Below are positions 26,683 through 34,029 of a DNA stretch of 34,493 nt, in pieces (within the stretch, counting starts at the first letter, position 1; each line of letters begins with the position of its first letter). Below the pieces are notes generated by a model. The model had not been told where the DNA came from. It made no database searches and saw only the letters and a program-made list of their open reading frames with translations. The stretch is from a virus. Both the position numbers and the translations under genes were made by a program. The stretch is from positions 1 through 34,493 of IMG/VR virus record IMGVR_UViG_3300029319_000212; one strand, given 5' to 3'.

Positions 26683-26885
26683 TTGTTGTCAGTGTTGCCA
26701 GTGTGGACAGTAACCGTTTGGCTAGTCTTTGTTGCGCTAAGTTACTGTAATTATTGGTAGCAGAGGGGAGACTTGAACTCCCGACCTTGCGATTATGAAT
26801 CGTAAATCCACAGAGCCGCTAGCCCGCTGACTGTCTAGCTTTGACCGACTGACAACAAGTTGTGTTGCCAATGGATTGACAACAC
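26683..26885. other. attP: attP region with core and five arm-type repeats
   Basis: A tRNA-like core (26755 to about 26804) lies just downstream of the integrase gene. It is flanked by five 9-bp sites of consensus [TG]TGTTG[TC]CA: 26683-26691 and 26692-26700 on the left; 26850-26858 (reverse), 26862-26870 and 26877-26885 (reverse) on the right. The outer sites include a perfect 11-bp inverted repeat (26683-26693 with 26848-26858). Core plus distal repeated sites is the architecture of lambda-type attP, where integrase binds arm sites with its N-terminal domain. No host boundary is in the window, so the crossover point is inferred. Confidence 0.8.
26755..26828 (-). tRNA. tRNA-Met(CAU)-like sequence, 3' half intact (attP core)
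   Basis: Read leftward it has an anticodon stem-loop with CAU (complement at 26795-26797) in a TTCATAA loop. It also has a perfect T-stem (GGGAG 26766-26770 with CTCCC 26778-26782) around TTCAAGT, a 3' acceptor strand CTCTGCT, discriminator A and an encoded CCA. The 5' half is poor: a possible acceptor strand AGCGGGC pairs only with two G-U and one mismatch, and no D-stem forms. It is therefore probably a piece of the host tRNA gene used for integration, not a working phage tRNA. Confidence 0.55.
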
Positions 26886-27953
26886 TTAGAGCTTATTCAC
26901 TAGATCTTGCACTTCGACAGTCTGGCTATTCAAGTAGCCCAGCGTTGTGGTTAGTTGCTGGTGCCGTAGTAGCTTCTGAACAAGCACAGGCGACTCACCC
27001 GCAGCGAGTAATTCCGTAGCCACGGTAGCCCGAAAGCCGTGCAATACCTTTGGCCCTTTCAAGCCTAGTTGATCCAACATCTTCTGAAAGCTGTGCCCTG
27101 CACTGCTGTAGTCTCGCCAGAACTTTCCGCCAGAACCATCATCACAGACAAACACTTCGCCGTCATGCGCTTCTGCGTCTAGAAACTGACGCAGCGGTCT
27201 GGCTACCGGCAGGATTGCATCCGCTCTGCCTTTTGTCTGCCAATCTTTATTGCTTTCCAGCCAAATGCCTTGGTGGCTGATGTGGTTCCAACGTAGGTGG
27301 ATCAACTCGCTGGCCCGCATGCCGGTGTAGCGGAACAGGTAGAACGCCCTACGAAGCACCAAGAAGCGCCGTGAACCGGTTTCTGTCAGCTTGCGTTCGA
27401 TGTACTCGCGCATCAGCTCCAACTGGTCACGGCTCCAGGTCTGCGGCACTACCGTGACGGCGCGGAGCTGCTTCAGTTTGTAAGGCCGGTCAACCAGTTC
27501 TTCTTCAAAAGCCCAGTTAAAAAAGCGCTGCACATTTCGGATGTGGTGGTTGATCGTGCGGTCATTTAGGCCACGCTGTCGCTCCTGGGCGATGTAGTTA
27601 TCAAGCTGACTGCGCTGGTAGTCTTGAACACAAGGATTGCCGTTCGCCTGTTGCCAGCGTTTCAGACTGTCGCCGTAGGTGTAAACCGTTCTTGGGCTGT
27701 TGCGGGTTTTACAGTGACCTAGAAAGCGCTCAACTGCCTTCTGGAAGGTTACTAGCGTGCCTTCGTTCTGTAGCCCTAGTTCTTGACGAAGCGCTTCCAA
27801 ACGTTCGGACAGAATCAGCGCCCGCTCCTGTGGGCTCATGCCGACAAACTCTGCCGCTGTGCCTAGCTTCTTACGAATCCGCTTACCGCCAACGTAGAGC
27901 TGCGCAATGTGAATGCCGCGCTGCTTGTTAAACGTGACCGTCTGCCGCTTCAC
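26886..27953 (-). CDS. int: Tyrosine recombinase (integrase)
   Basis: 355 aa. Catalytic residues are complete: R213 in TGMRASEL, a likely K near 241, H305 and R308 in HGFRAT, H331 in LLRH, and nucleophile Y340 in GYLN. The N-terminal part (1-60) carries a basic arm-binding-like region, and residues 70-160 a SAM-like core-binding domain with TINHHIRNVQRFFNWA. It starts at GTG 27953 without a Shine-Dalgarno; an in-frame TAA lies four codons upstream, so no longer start is available. attP follows directly after the stop. Start and candidate promoter positions suggest a leaderless mRNA. No excisionase is recognised. Confidence 0.95.
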   Translation of the reverse strand: MKRQTVTFNKQRGIHIAQLYVGGKRIRKKLGTAAEFVGMSPQERALILSERLEALRQELGLQNEGTLVTFQKAVERFLGHCKTRNSPRTVYTYGDSLKRWQQANGNPCVQDYQRSQLDNYIAQERQRGLNDRTINHHIRNVQRFFNWAFEEELVDRPYKLKQLRAVTVVPQTWSRDQLELMREYIERKLTETGSRRFLVLRRAFYLFRYTGMRASELIHLRWNHISHQGIWLESNKDWQTKGRADAILPVARPLRQFLDAEAHDGEVFVCDDGSGGKFWRDYSSAGHSFQKMLDQLGLKGPKVLHGFRATVATELLAAGESPVLVQKLLRHQQLTTTLGYLNSQTVEVQDLVNKL

Positions 27954-28451: not shown

Positions 28452-28587
28452 ACATGGCCCACGCAGATAAAAATTGTACTTGAAAGTAATCCGCTGTTTA
28501 CATAAAGTCATGAACAAGCTTTAAACTTTTGCAAACAACATTAGCTTCGATAAAAAACAATCATACACAGAAGCAACTCCTTTGCCA
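28452..28587. promoter_or_regulatory. Genetic switch: divergent promoters and operator-like repeats
   Basis: Between repressor and Cro-like genes. Leftward, TACAAT (28473-28478) fits a -10 with a weak -35 near 28497-28502. Rightward, TTGCAA (28529-28534) and A-rich -10-like GATAAA/TAAAAA (28549-28556) are weaker. A dyad TACTT-GA-AAGTA (28477-28488) overlaps the leftward promoter. AAAGT half-sites occur at 28483, 28504 and, inverted, 28525, exactly 21 bp apart, i.e. on the same DNA face. These are likely operators for the two regulators. Confidence 0.6.
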
Positions 28588-28785
28588 ATGAATTTGTTGA
28601 AAGAGTGCCAGTTTTATGGCGTCCGTGTGAGACAGTTAGCCGACGCCAGCGGCTTTACCCAGTCGTATGTACGCCAGGTACTGCTGAATGAACGACGAAA
28701 TGACGAAATCAAACAGTTAGCGCACGCGGCTTTACACAACCGCAAGGAAGAATTGCTAACCGCGCTCTTAAAGGAGTCCGCATGA
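28588..28785 (+). CDS. Cro-like helix-turn-helix protein
   Basis: 65 aa from the ATG at 28588; a TTG two codons upstream is possible. Residues 11-35 (VRVRQLADASGFTQSYVRQVL) form a helix-turn-helix, followed by two short helices. Divergent orientation to the CI-like gene, small size and first place in the rightward early operon fit a Cro-type repressor that shuts off CI. There is no good ribosome site before the start. Its last codons (KESA-stop) contain the ribosome site of the next gene. Confidence 0.72.
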   Translation: MNLLKECQFYGVRVRQLADASGFTQSYVRQVLLNERRNDEIKQLAHAALHNRKEELLTALLKESA

Positions 28786-29307: not shown

Positions 29308-29639
29308 CCGAAGAACAGGTCGAAGAGTCACGGCTGCGGGCTCAGTTTCGCTTCCAAGCGTTTTTAGATGAGACGGCAAGGCTGGAGCGACAGAACAAGT
29401 ATTGGGACAACCAGGCGCGTTACGCACTAAAGCGCATCTGTTTTCTGTACGAGTGCAGTGATTGCGGCAAGCTAGTAGGCGCGAAGCACGCGCTAAACTG
29501 TCCAGACCGTGACTTGACACCCGTGATGCCGTCAGAACTGTCACTGAGTGAGCGCCTGCAGCGTCGCGAAGATATATTCAACGATTGGAACTGGGATTAC
29601 GACGCCAACGTTGCCAAACTTGCGGAGTTGCTGACTTGA
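29304..29639 (+). CDS. Early protein with a small zinc-binding cysteine motif
   Basis: 111 aa, GTG start overlapping the previous stop. The N-terminus (1-50) is a charged helix. Around residues 52-72 the motif C-x5-C-x2-C with a following H-x4-C (CFLYECSDCGK...HALNC) resembles a zinc ribbon. The C-terminal part is acidic with several Asp/Asn. The family is not recognised. The stop overlaps the next TTG start (TTGA), so three small genes here are translationally linked. Confidence 0.65.
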   Translation: MTEEQVEESRLRAQFRFQAFLDETARLERQNKYWDNQARYALKRICFLYECSDCGKLVGAKHALNCPDRDLTPVMPSELSLSERLQRREDIFNDWNWDYDANVAKLAELLT

Positions 29640-29887
29640 AGCGCCTGAGTGAGCGTTTGAGTGAGCGGCTGGCACAGCGTGACATGTCACGATTGGCGCT
29701 GGAACCCGCCAGACCAGCCGCTACGCAGCCTACTGGCAAAAACTTGGACATAAGCGTGACATGTCACGATTCAAAACTGCGCTATTGCCCTGGTTGCGAT
29801 AACTACAAAACGCCGAAACCACCACTTTGGGTATTTGGTAGCAAGGTCTGTCGTTTCTGTCAGCGAATGAGCCGCCTTGGCCGGTGA
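29636..29887 (+). CDS. Zinc-finger-like early protein carrying two palindromic DNA elements
   Basis: 83 aa from a TTG at 29636 overlapping the previous stop (TTGA); this choice gives the same coupling seen elsewhere. The N-terminus repeats RLSERLSERLAQR, a basic amphipathic helix. The C-terminus contains YCPGCDNYKTPK and VCRFCQR, a four-cysteine zinc ribbon (C-x2-C...C-x2-C) common in small phage proteins. The DNA holds two copies of a 19-bp palindromic element in different reading frames. The end overlaps the next gene by 11 bases. Confidence 0.68.
   Translation: MKRLSERLSERLAQRDMSRLALEPARPAATQPTGKNLDISVTCHDSKLRYCPGCDNYKTPKPPLWVFGSKVCRFCQRMSRLGR
29676..29771. repeat. Pair of identical 19-bp palindromic elements
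   Basis: AGCGTGACATGTCACGATT occurs at 29676-29694 and 29753-29771, with a perfect 14-bp palindrome CGTGACATGTCACG at its heart (29678-29691 and 29755-29768). The copies are 77 bp apart and lie in different codon phases: the first reads R-D-M-S-R, the second V-T-C-H-D. Conservation is therefore of DNA, not protein. It looks like a binding site for a dimeric protein. Confidence 0.85.
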
Positions 29888-30731
29888 AAAGAATCGAACT
29901 TGCTTCCCAAAGCCCTGCGTCTGGTGTGGGAAGGAGTTTACACCACGGGAAGCCAAGATAAGGCATTGCAGTCGCAAATGTGGCTATCTTAACGTAAGCC
30001 GCGAACAGCGAGCTAGGAAGATGAAACGCTGCGTTCAGTGCGAGCGGATGTTCTATAACAGGAACAGCAACGCTAAGTATTGCAACCAGGACTGCTATTA
30101 CGAAGCCGCAAGGTCTAGGCGCGTCAAGAACTACATGGGCTGGACAGCACAGCAAGTCCAGTGTCCGCACTGTACAGCGTTTTTCACGCAGCGCAGTGTC
30201 AACCATAAATACTGTACGCGGAGCTGCTACAAAGCCATGAAGCGGCACCAGACGTACATCCGTCTGAAGGCCACCAGCCGCACCGAGTGCAAGCACTGCT
30301 TGCAACCGCTGAAGGAACTCGGCCGCGTCTTCTGCAGTAAGAAATGTAGTGACAAGCATAAGTACATCGCCCACCAGATTTATCAAATAAAGTGCGCGAT
30401 TTGTGGGACTGAGTTCAAGACCAAGAAGAAGCACAGACTGCACTGCAGTAAAAGCTGCAGTAACAAGGCGACGAACCGCAAGAAGGCCGATGAAGCCGCC
30501 ATGCGGCAAGAAGCGTATCACAAGCGTGAGGGGCGCTTGCGTGAGACGATGGAAAGGCGGGTCAAGCACAGTAAGATGATGCCACTGGAAACCGCTCATG
30601 CTGATGCGATCAAGGCATTCCTACAGCGTGGTGGCACCATAAAGCAGTTTCAGCCACAGGATGCAGAGCAGGCGAATACCGCTGTACCCGAAAACTTTTG
30701 GTCCTTCGACCAGTACGACCTAGAAATTTAA
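29877..30731 (+). CDS. Protein with five tandem zinc-finger modules
   Basis: 284 aa from TTG 29877, the only start that keeps the first module. Five consecutive modules of pattern C-x2-C-x(10-14)-[HYF]C-x3-C: CVWC...HCSRKC (about 14-35), CVQC...YCNQDC (52-73), CPHC...YCTRSC (95-117), CKHC...FCSKKC (138-158) and CAIC...HCSKSC (173-195). Each repeats a [KR]-x-C-S/T-x-x-C end, like treble-clef or FCS/MYM-type fingers found singly in phage endonucleases and regulators. The modules are spaced about 20-43 residues apart by basic linkers. The C-terminus (196-284) is a charged helix and a short domain. It probably binds DNA or RNA. Other zinc genes lie directly upstream. Confidence 0.75.
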   Translation: MAGEKNRTCFPKPCVWCGKEFTPREAKIRHCSRKCGYLNVSREQRARKMKRCVQCERMFYNRNSNAKYCNQDCYYEAARSRRVKNYMGWTAQQVQCPHCTAFFTQRSVNHKYCTRSCYKAMKRHQTYIRLKATSRTECKHCLQPLKELGRVFCSKKCSDKHKYIAHQIYQIKCAICGTEFKTKKKHRLHCSKSCSNKATNRKKADEAAMRQEAYHKREGRLRETMERRVKHSKMMPLETAHADAIKAFLQRGGTIKQFQPQDAEQANTAVPENFWSFDQYDLEI

Positions 30732-32162: not shown

Positions 32163-33038
32163 ATGATTCACAAGCAAGTCCCTGAAGGGCAGCGCTACAC
32201 GCAGATCAGCAATGAAGTCCTGCAATCAGACCATCTTAGCCTGCTTGCCAAGGGCTTGCTTGCCGTATTGCTTTCACATCCACCTAACTTCAAGGTCACC
32301 GCTGACTGGATTCACCGCCACTGTGATGAAGGTCGGTTGCGTGTCCGCAAAGTCCTAGCCGAACTACAAGAAGCGGGCTACCTGGAAAAGCGTTCTGAAC
32401 GCAACGATAAAGGCCATGTCACTGAGTGGGTCTGGGACGTTAACCAGGGAGATAAAATGATCCGAACCATAGACGAAATTACAGAGCCAGAAAGTCCAGA
32501 TGTCCAGAAGGTCGTTTCTGGTCAAGTAGGTCCAGATGTCCAGAAGTCAACTTCTGGTCAAGTTACACCTTATAATGAAAAACAAACTAATAAAGAAAAA
32601 GTAAACCAAAAAGAAAGAACAAAACAGACGCCGTTACCGGCTTGGTTGTCTGAAGAGCTTTGGGAAGATTTCAAGGAACACCGAAAGTTACTTCGAAAAC
32701 CGCTTACGCCGTTAGCCGCAACGCGAATCCTGAAAACGCTGAACCAAGTAGCGGCTGACTATTCAGAAGCCGAAGCACGACAGTGCTTGGATACTTCGAT
32801 AGCCAACGGCTGGCTGGGCGTGTTCCCGCCCAGAACTCAGAACGAAACGTCACCACGCTACCAGAGCGCTGATGAAAAGAACCAATCTGTTTTAGACGCA
32901 TTTTTGAAGGGAGATGCCAATGGCAAGCAGGGAAACGATAGTCCAAGTGCTGACCGAGTTTTCAGCCAGCACCGGAAGGACGATACCAAGCGAGCTGCCC
33001 TTAGTCTGGTTGCGGGACTACAAAGACGTACCGGATGA
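32163..33038 (+). CDS. Replication initiator-like winged-helix protein
   Basis: 291 aa. Residues 25-85 form a winged helix (LSLLAKGLLAVLLSHPPNFKV, WIHRHCDEGRLRVRKVLAELQEAGYLEKR, then a wing with VWDV), as in phage replication O-like and plasmid initiator proteins. A flexible linker (115-155) contains a duplicated 12-aa unit PDVQK-x-x-SGQV and a Lys/Asn/Thr-rich part. The DNA there forms the candidate origin. The C-terminal domain (160-225: LWEDFKEHRKLLRKPLTPLAATRIL) is the segment seen in DnaD/O-like initiators before helicase loading. The gene order initiator then small loader-like gene parallels lambda O-P. It overlaps the next gene by 119 bases. Confidence 0.72.
   Translation: MIHKQVPEGQRYTQISNEVLQSDHLSLLAKGLLAVLLSHPPNFKVTADWIHRHCDEGRLRVRKVLAELQEAGYLEKRSERNDKGHVTEWVWDVNQGDKMIRTIDEITEPESPDVQKVVSGQVGPDVQKSTSGQVTPYNEKQTNKEKVNQKERTKQTPLPAWLSEELWEDFKEHRKLLRKPLTPLAATRILKTLNQVAADYSEAEARQCLDTSIANGWLGVFPPRTQNETSPRYQSADEKNQSVLDAFLKGDANGKQGNDSPSADRVFSQHRKDDTKRAALSLVAGLQRRTG
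32487..32628. other. ori: Candidate replication origin inside the initiator gene
   Basis: Two 36-bp units (32494-32529 and 32530 to about 32563) each hold a dyad: CCAGAA...TTCTGG (32504-32521, 6-bp spacer) and CCAGAAG-TCAA-CTTCTGG (32540-32557, perfect 7-bp arms). Two further CCAGA half-sites precede each other at 32487 and 32496. Directly after comes an A-rich, strand-biased tract (32568-32628) with almost no G/C, like a DNA-unwinding element. Iterons plus an A/T tract within the initiator gene is the layout of lambda ori in gene O. Confidence 0.6.
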
Positions 33039-33366
33039 CGCCTTCGTCGCAGGCATGACCGCGCTTCTGCACAGCACTACGGAACGGCAGTTCCCGATGA
33101 AAGGCCAGTTCCTGGAAGCGCTACAGACTACGCGCTTTCGGCACTACCGCTTGGGTAGCAGCGCACAGAGCAACACCGACGCCACCACACACCAGCGCCC
33201 TGAACTGATTGATCCAGAAACCACCAAGCAAAAGCGACAGGCTTTTTTTAGCCGCTTGCGAGAGCAAGCCAAGACCAAGAGCGCCAGCAGTGGTGTGCGT
33301 CACCACGACGATCCACGCTACCAGGCGCTGCTGGAGCTGGGCGAACAACTTGCCAAATCTTGCTGA
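32920..33366 (+). CDS. Possible helicase-loader-like replication protein
   Basis: 148 aa. The start at 32920 is preferred over ATG 32914 because GGGAG (32909-32913) sits six bases before it and only touches 32914. The first half contains W-L-R-D-Y-K-D-V-PDDAFVAGMTAL and then a QFPMKGQFLEAL motif. This resembles the W...L...D...F-x-x-A....FPP...E arrangement of small phage loader or loader-interacting proteins. The second half is basic and flexible with a C-terminal YQALLELGEQLA helix. No Walker motif is present, so it would not be a DnaC-type ATPase. The gene lies between the initiator (119-base overlap) and RusA (one-base overlap). Confidence 0.5.
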   Translation: MASRETIVQVLTEFSASTGRTIPSELPLVWLRDYKDVPDDAFVAGMTALLHSTTERQFPMKGQFLEALQTTRFRHYRLGSSAQSNTDATTHQRPELIDPETTKQKRQAFFSRLREQAKTKSASSGVRHHDDPRYQALLELGEQLAKSC

Positions 33367-33779
33367 TGTTGGAGTCAGCCACCTACGTTTTCCAAGTCCC
33401 ACCACAGACCGCGCCGCGCATGACACGCCGTGATCGCTGGAAGAAACGGCCTTGTGTTCAGCGCTACTTCGCCTATCGCGATCAGTTGCGCGCTAAAGCC
33501 GTCGAGTATGGCATCACGCTCCCGAACGCTTTCACCGTCACGTTTTACATGGCTATGCCGAAATCATGGAGCAAGAAGAAGAAAGCCGCGCATGTTGGCA
33601 AGCCGTGCCAGTCGAAACCAGACCTAGACAACGTTCTAAAGGGCTTCATGGATGCGCTGCGGACTAACGATGCTAGCGTTTACGCCGTGAGCGCTTCGAA
33701 GTTTTGGAGCGAGCAGCCTGGCGTCGTTCTAAGCGTTCGCGTGCCTTCGCCCGCTTGGCGGCCAAAGTGGGCGGTATGA
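33366..33779 (+). CDS. rusA: RusA-like Holliday junction resolvase
   Basis: 137 aa from ATG 33366, which shares one base with the previous TGA. It carries the RusA family core: a basic strand-turn, then YMAMPKSWSKKKK (61-73), KPDLDNVLKGFMDAL (84-98, catalytic D86 and D88) and NDASVYAV (101-108, third acidic position D102). It ends with a strand-rich VVLSVRVP segment. RusA resolves four-way junctions as a dimer, which helps remove branches before packaging. Its 3' end overlaps the opposite-strand XRE gene by 107 bases, so antisense interference is possible. Confidence 0.9.
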   Translation: MLESATYVFQVPPQTAPRMTRRDRWKKRPCVQRYFAYRDQLRAKAVEYGITLPNAFTVTFYMAMPKSWSKKKKAAHVGKPCQSKPDLDNVLKGFMDALRTNDASVYAVSASKFWSEQPGVVLSVRVPSPAWRPKWAV

Positions 33780-33978
33780 GCATTTCCTGCAGGATGCTGA
33801 CTGGTGCGTCGGGTGGTAGGCTGTGGATCGAATACAAGAGCGCTACCTGGTGCAGCGTGCGGTCTGCTACTTCCAGGTGCGAACACTCTTGCAGGCTGAT
33901 ATGAGTCTCTGAAACGCTCAACAGTTCCGCCAGTTCCTTTTGCGTCAACTGCATGGCTGTACGCCAGGTGCGCATCAT
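33673..33978 (-). CDS. XRE-family regulator, convergent with rusA
   Basis: 101 aa from ATG 33978 (33975 also possible). A TTG at 34029 would add 17 residues without a better ribosome site. Residues 5-45 hold a clear helix-turn-helix: LTQKELAELLSVSETHISLQE followed by a recognition-like helix. The C-terminal 40 residues are very basic (RAKARERLERRQAARSKTSKRSRRKR-type). It is the only leftward gene here besides the lysogeny genes and faces a 400-bp control region before the terminase operon. It may repress late or early transcription, or its own promoter. The tail-to-tail overlap with rusA is unusual. Confidence 0.78.
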   Translation of the reverse strand: MMRTWRTAMQLTQKELAELLSVSETHISLQECSHLEVADRTLHQVALLYSIHSLPPDAPVSILQEMLIPPTLAAKRAKARERLERRQAARSKTSKRSRRKR

Positions 33979-34029
33979 ATCGGCGCGGATTGCAGTATTT
34001 AATGCGTTTCGTGGCGGAAGACCGGTCAA

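Follow-up and report, generated by a model that had tools for sequence, protein, structure and literature searches.

A paired palindrome in a viral early gene belongs to a phage site class probably bound by PHROG 536-type proteins

Two identical palindromic elements inside a small zinc-ribbon gene of a viral contig are probably protein-binding sites of the class YGTGAC-N2-GTCACR, whose natural binders would be phage proteins of the PHROG 536 family and diverged forms of them, supplied to this phage in trans and acting by a block to transcription; we consider this composite reading the likeliest account of the pair while leaving appreciable room for error. The contig (hereafter the window: a linear IMG/VR virus sequence analysed over its whole 34,493 bp, possibly a fragment) would thereby draw on a widespread class of phage sites whose strongly implied protein partner is absent from the record. 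Judged from sequence comparison, it is almost certain that the word is a true signal for protein binding and did not arise by accident of coding, and the same comparisons bring out the site class itself, its tie to the PHROG 536 family and its conservation. The proposal provides a candidate DNA target for a widespread phage family known only as 'transcriptional regulator', and the presence of PHROG 536 in the named phages epsilon15, N15, phiV10 and ZF40 makes it testable at once. Neither the 12-bp core of the class, GTGACATGTCAC, nor PHROG 536 was found in open-access text.

The 19-bp element AGCGTGACATGTCACGATT occurs twice on the plus strand of the window, at positions 29,676-29,694 and 29,753-29,771, with starts 77 bp apart. 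Each copy is built around the perfect 14-bp palindrome CGTGACATGTCACG (29,678-29,691 and 29,755-29,768), which is of the form YGTGACNNGTCACR with AT as the central dinucleotide and exactly 2 bp between the GTGAC and GTCAC half-sites; the 12-mer is flanked by C...G in both copies and in all relatives, in agreement with the Y/R flanks of the class, and a pair of copies sharing one centre accords with the two or more sites, usually alike in the central dinucleotide, expected of a phage using the class. Both copies fall within a gene at 29,636-29,887 (plus strand) in different codon phases, copy 1 being read as (Q)RDMSR(L) and copy 2 as (S)VTCHD(S), and a scan of the window for GTGAC-N(0-6)-GTCAC returned nothing beyond them. 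A sequence-only reading of the window had reported the two copies, their spacing and location in this gene, their palindromic centre, their different phases and the lack of a third copy, all of which are borne out. The expectation from shuffled sequence is 0.03 matches; two occurrences of the 12-mer in 34.5 kb have a Poisson p of about 2e-6, and a random window of equal size should by chance contain about 0.002 repeated 19-mer pairs.

The 83-aa product of this gene comprises a helix-like N-terminus (MKRLSERLSERL), a variable linker that holds the copies and a C-terminal CxxC...CxxC zinc ribbon; its start codon is TTG in the window, an assignment supported by the ATG that relatives show there. 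The early operon containing the pair is headed by a Cro-like gene (28,582-28,785, plus strand), and the pair is located downstream of that gene and upstream of zinc-finger, recombination-type and replication-initiator-like genes. Immediately downstream, 29,877-30,731 (plus strand) encodes a 284-aa multi-CxxC protein with weak similarity to PHROG HNH endonucleases and NinG, and a RusA-family resolvase gene is found at 33,360-33,779 (plus strand). No promoter-like sequence was found near the copies, both of which are inside the coding gene. Convergent to the RusA gene is that of a helix-turn-helix protein (33,673-34,029, minus strand) which is present too in the relative L135. Elsewhere in the window, a tRNA-Met gene (26,755-26,831) adjoins the integrase gene (26,886-27,953), whose product has only distant relatives among named phages; the tRNA gene is a likely attachment site and could identify the host. 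The replication-initiator-like gene at 32,163-33,038 carries repeated tccagatgtccagaag / ttctggtcaag words at 32,480-32,580, which make this a candidate origin of the phage.

Four IMG/VR contigs encoding a 90-91% identical protein retain both copies, 77 bp apart in all of them, at a DNA divergence of about 22% from the window. In an alignment of the window with the relatives L123, L124 and L126, the palindromes are invariant in both phases, third codon positions included; outside them, the window departs from these three by 9-14% within the spacer and by 21-26% across the upstream gene. In the relatives copy 2 is preceded by CTCGCG, such that the element common to all is GCGTGACATGTCACGATT. 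That the DNA itself is under constraint, as had been proposed, is thus upheld by copies that stay unchanged in four related contigs while the flanking DNA drifts. The expected persistence of the palindrome in homologues held in those four contigs and failed in three more distant relatives: L129 encodes a homologue of 74 aa and L127 one whose zinc ribbon is diverged, the linker being shorter and the sites absent in both, and L128 is devoid of both the sites and the zinc-ribbon gene. The sites thus occupy a variable linker, bounded by a conserved N-terminal segment on one side and the zinc ribbon on the other, and belong to one clade, which is consistent with selection on DNA and speaks against a zinc-ribbon protein dedicated to binding them. 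The pair would be best described as YGTGAC-N2-GTCACR sites placed where a small early gene encodes a tolerant linker.

The same word recurs outside this family. A scan of IMG/VR for two GTGACATGTCAC words 50-80 bp apart identified nine contigs, four of the window family and five others, against none for a reversed-palindrome control in the same scan, and a further scan turned up Pseudomonas-type phages in which the two words lie 120 bp apart. Among phage records the word may overlap a start or a stop codon, lie between genes or fall within coding sequence, where two frames are seen; both orientations occur, and some sites are in gaps between convergent genes or in extended intergenic regions. 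Its recurrence in unrelated phages in other frames and settings argues that the DNA itself is recognised, as the sequence-only reading had supposed. The base following the 12-mer, taken in both orientations, is a purine at 99% of 57 phage or prophage sites and at 98% of 24 Providencia sites, from which we derive the class consensus YGTGACATGTCACR. Flank composition separates the real class from look-alikes: this rule is obeyed by the window copies and by the pairs in L130, L131, L133, L134 and L146, and broken by arrays in Akkermansiaceae, Streptomyces and Zoogloeaceae. Across 369 genomes, pairs of the same class were found only in Providencia burhodogranariea.

Raw counts of the longer 15-mer GCGTGACATGTCACG were considered as a sign of a universal site; it is present in at least 120 IMG/VR stretches, a number near the rough chance expectation, and the matches include leviviral replicases (L048, L075, L081) in which RDMSR resembles protein homology. 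For both reasons we set the raw counts aside and relied on pairs and on unselected gene-based tests. In Q-antiterminator genes (L093, L022 and L005-type loci) CVTCHGKG, the zinc motif of one Q-like family, is encoded by the word, as is the start, MRDMSR, of another (RDMSR being codons 2-6), so that the frame of the word differs between two unrelated Q-like genes; these coding motifs may be partly coincidental and were left aside as main evidence.

A search for genes near the sites yielded a protein of about 113 aa in about 37 loci, often touching the site, which corresponds to PHROG 536; Pfam and NCBIfam gave no usable match. The protein features a basic arm, AERKAAQRARQ (with invariant RKA.QR.R), a ribbon-helix-helix (RHH)-like segment and a C-terminal cysteine cluster. 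An AlphaFold2 model (mean pLDDT 75.6) places helices at residues 5-18, 30-43 and 52-75, and its best structural matches, with weak scores, are the RHH domains of NikR (Z 5.1, 1.9 A over 48 residues) and ParD (Z 4.0); Foldseek alone returned nothing significant. Because the structural scores are weak, we describe an RHH fold with its beta-alpha-alpha unit at residues 21-75 as probable. The class would be bound by such small phage proteins, including the diverged Pseudomonas and Vibrio forms, through a basic N-terminal arm and a probable RHH domain, presumably as dimers with one half-site per RHH unit. This predicted beta-alpha-alpha unit, together with a palindromic word of two half-sites, likens PHROG 536 to the RHH repressors NikR, ParD, Arc and MetJ, from which it differs in its extra basic helix, AERKAAQRARQ, its C-terminal cysteine cluster and the position of its sites at gene ends, over stop codons and inside genes rather than mainly at promoters.

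The link between protein and site was assessed in 15 named phages picked for encoding PHROG 536 or its Pseudomonas form and not for the site. All 15 contain GTGAC-N2-GTCAC, with 35 sites in total against 0.58 expected, counts that are not all independent given that the set includes close relatives (epsilon15-like phages), and Y/R flanks are present at 35/35 sites. Other spacers are rare (none of 0 bp, one of 1 bp, two of 3 bp and none of 4-8 bp), and GTGAC tops all 5-bp arms, occurring in 15/15 phages as against 7/15 for the next best. In eight phages the centre of a site is 2.5 bp past the last base of the regulator stop codon, the TGA of which is part of GTGAC; with ZF40, whose site is a few bases further downstream of the stop, such phages number nine. 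N15 encodes a diverged gp46 and has three identical GTGACTGGTCAC sites, one of them over the gp46 stop, while in Pseudomonas phages the regulator gene has sites within it or at its end; a third site of Tyrion is visible only with the record ends joined. Central dinucleotides are AC/GT in Vibrio phages and GC in the P. aeruginosa phages Spike and JBD24, so that the sites vary with protein lineage as the half-sites stay fixed. Around 14 PHROG 536-type genes taken from unselected genomes, GTGACATGTCAC is found within 1.5 kb at 7/14 loci, compared with one for every other 12-bp palindrome, and the other half of these loci have no site within that distance.

Bacterial chromosomes offer a further comparison. 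Among 119 genomes of the family of P. burhodogranariea (gene call at E <= 1e-5), the gene is present in 12, the exact word in 17 and both in 10 (Fisher p = 1.1e-8), and each genome with two or more copies of the word also has a PHROG 536 gene; the reversed-palindrome control is somewhat enriched too (4/12 gene-positive versus 3/107 genomes), never with more than one copy per genome. The chromosome of P. burhodogranariea (G005) bears 87 exact copies of GTGACATGTCAC against none of the control (loci L143, L154-L173, L215 and L250-L269) and a single chromosomal PHROG 536 gene (C1:1098022-1098354) with a site 21 bp upstream, and two other Providencia species have 36 (G165) and 10 copies. Within the genus, the co-occurrence of gene and site is 14/15 versus 2/9 (p = 7e-4), and copy number is species-specific, from 0 to 87, and tracks PHROG 536. 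Of 21 Providencia sites inspected, 19 are intergenic (eight between convergent, eight between tandem and three between divergent genes) and two are inside ORFs; the prevalence of convergent and tandem settings, with just 3/21 between divergent genes, led us to reject a promoter-operator role.

Taken with the phage data, these patterns suggest that PHROG 536-type proteins bind the class. As to the outcome of binding, a roadblock or architectural block to transcription would be most likely, rather than promoter repression, because the sites lie at gene ends, stop codons and terminators and inside genes; a location over stop codons and at operon ends is not what a classical promoter repressor would show and favours control at boundaries or by a roadblock. 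In epsilon15-like phages they are over the regulator stop codon, beside terminators and between convergent operons, and in ZF40 they are inside early or regulatory genes. Adjacency to terminators is enriched (12/54 versus 5.5%, p = 3e-5), a result that we take as suggestive because it is driven by the closely related epsilon15-like phages. A protein seated on the site would block or delimit elongating transcription, or organise the DNA; at the window pair, which follows the Cro-like gene, it could reduce expression of the zinc-finger, recombination and replication genes further downstream. More tentatively, and with the balance of probability against it, PHROG 536-type, RHH-like proteins may constitute a phage system of sequence-specific transcription boundaries, marking their own stop codon and operon ends with YGTGACNNGTCACR sites, which some Providencia species have adopted on the chromosome (up to 87 sites) and of which the window phage is a satellite user devoid of the protein. 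If true, the Providencia sites would form a second chromosomal site system of the MatP/matS kind, distinguished by its 2-bp spacer, and their chromosome-wide use would represent a new phage-related global regulator or nucleoid factor beside MatP/matS.

The genes of epsilon15 gp49, N15 gp46 and phiV10p55 carry and accompany the site; the window differs from these family members in that no recognisable PHROG 536 member was found in its record (E <= 1) or in those of relatives (L125, L135) that jointly cover int to terL, all of these records being partial. The early proteins of the window were tried as PHROG 536 relatives by hhalign and rejected, with probabilities <5% as against 93-95% for positive controls. 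There is likewise no regulator stop-codon site to assess in the window, as no regulator gene was found in the record, and the arrangement of Pasteurellaceae phages, where the PHROG 536 gene is a few genes downstream of the RusA counterpart, is not seen in the window family. The phage would presumably be served in trans by a family member of the host or of a co-resident prophage, or by a diverged protein. A PHROG 536 member also went undetected in 18/30 site-bearing phage records, many of them partial, and these absences, in the window family and elsewhere, make another binder possible. One such candidate would come from the phage itself without belonging to PHROG 536: the zinc-ribbon, Cro-like or five-module zinc-finger protein, or the helix-turn-helix protein of 33,673-34,029, might act at a local autoregulatory operator. 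Besides the absences just described, the location of the sites inside the zinc-ribbon gene, like that of the Pseudomonas-phage sites relative to their regulator gene, speaks for this unlikely reading, which nevertheless needs the identical 14-bp class to have arisen independently and conflicts with the homologues in L127 and L129 that occur without any GTGAC-N(0-6)-GTCAC. The self-contained system of neighbouring zinc-finger proteins and operator suggested by the sequence-only reading is not supported on the same grounds: zinc-ribbon homologues persist in site-less relatives, PHROG 536 tracks the site instead, and the zinc-finger genes are poor binder candidates.

Host nucleoid factors with related sites also deserve consideration. 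The SlmA-binding site, GTGAGTACTCAC, is a 12-bp palindrome which shares the outer GTGA/TCAC with the present class and differs in its central bases. MatP is an RHH-type protein, and use of the word by MatP or a relative, after the fashion of matS in the E. coli terminus, would be in keeping with the many chromosomal copies in some Providencia species. The half-sites GTGAC/GTCAC are identical to those of the matS consensus, GTGACRNYGTCAC, the spacer of which is however 3 bp (PMC6907758). N2 accounts for 35 sites and N3 for two in the 15 phages, copy number in Providencia follows PHROG 536, and the class occurs in phages, beyond the terminus region and with a different protein family, all of which makes MatP a very improbable user. 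matS itself, the nearest published motif, is absent from the window and was discarded as the identity of the window sites on account of its spacer. About as improbable is an action in RNA, whereby copy 1 folds onto copy 2, or each forms a hairpin, to control translation or processing: the copies can pair in mRNA and do so in the predicted minimum-energy fold, yet this fold is just 1.2 sd below shuffles, and the occurrence of sites elsewhere in either orientation, in convergent-gene gaps and in long intergenic DNA suits recognition of double-stranded DNA. We give the smallest chances of all to two further accounts. A recent micro-duplication or gene conversion devoid of function would explain why the copies are alike over 18-19 bp, slightly beyond the palindrome, but not why both are in place in contigs as diverged as the four described above, nor why the site recurs as pairs or multiples in unrelated phages. 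A cleavage or recombination site, for instance for a phage HNH or Holliday-junction enzyme, would agree with the weakly HNH-like downstream protein and with the RusA genes that are common near sites; the protein that tracks the site is nonetheless PHROG 536 rather than HNH or RusA, and cutting at 87 chromosomal copies would be costly to a host. The nuclease-site alternative raised by the sequence-only reading accordingly gained no support.

Other arrangements of the same half-sites or core were encountered in the course of these searches. Dense arrays of GTGAC/GTCAC half-words are present in phages of differing composition (L072, L115, L059, L062, L035, L045, L118, L119), several of them in replication-initiator-looking genes, and may be origin iterons, related or unrelated to the present site. 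An Akkermansiaceae MAG (L139, L141, L142) contains 65-66 bp tandem repeats, each with GGTGACATGTCACC, whose flank is unlike that of the phage class and suggestive of a different element. Finally, Streptomyces sp. ATexAB-D23 (L140) displays a cluster of five GTGACATGTCAC copies in about 180 bp, and the genome of Sorangium cellulosum (L144) has 25 copies, often 21-33 bp apart; these clusters suggest separate regulators sharing the same core.
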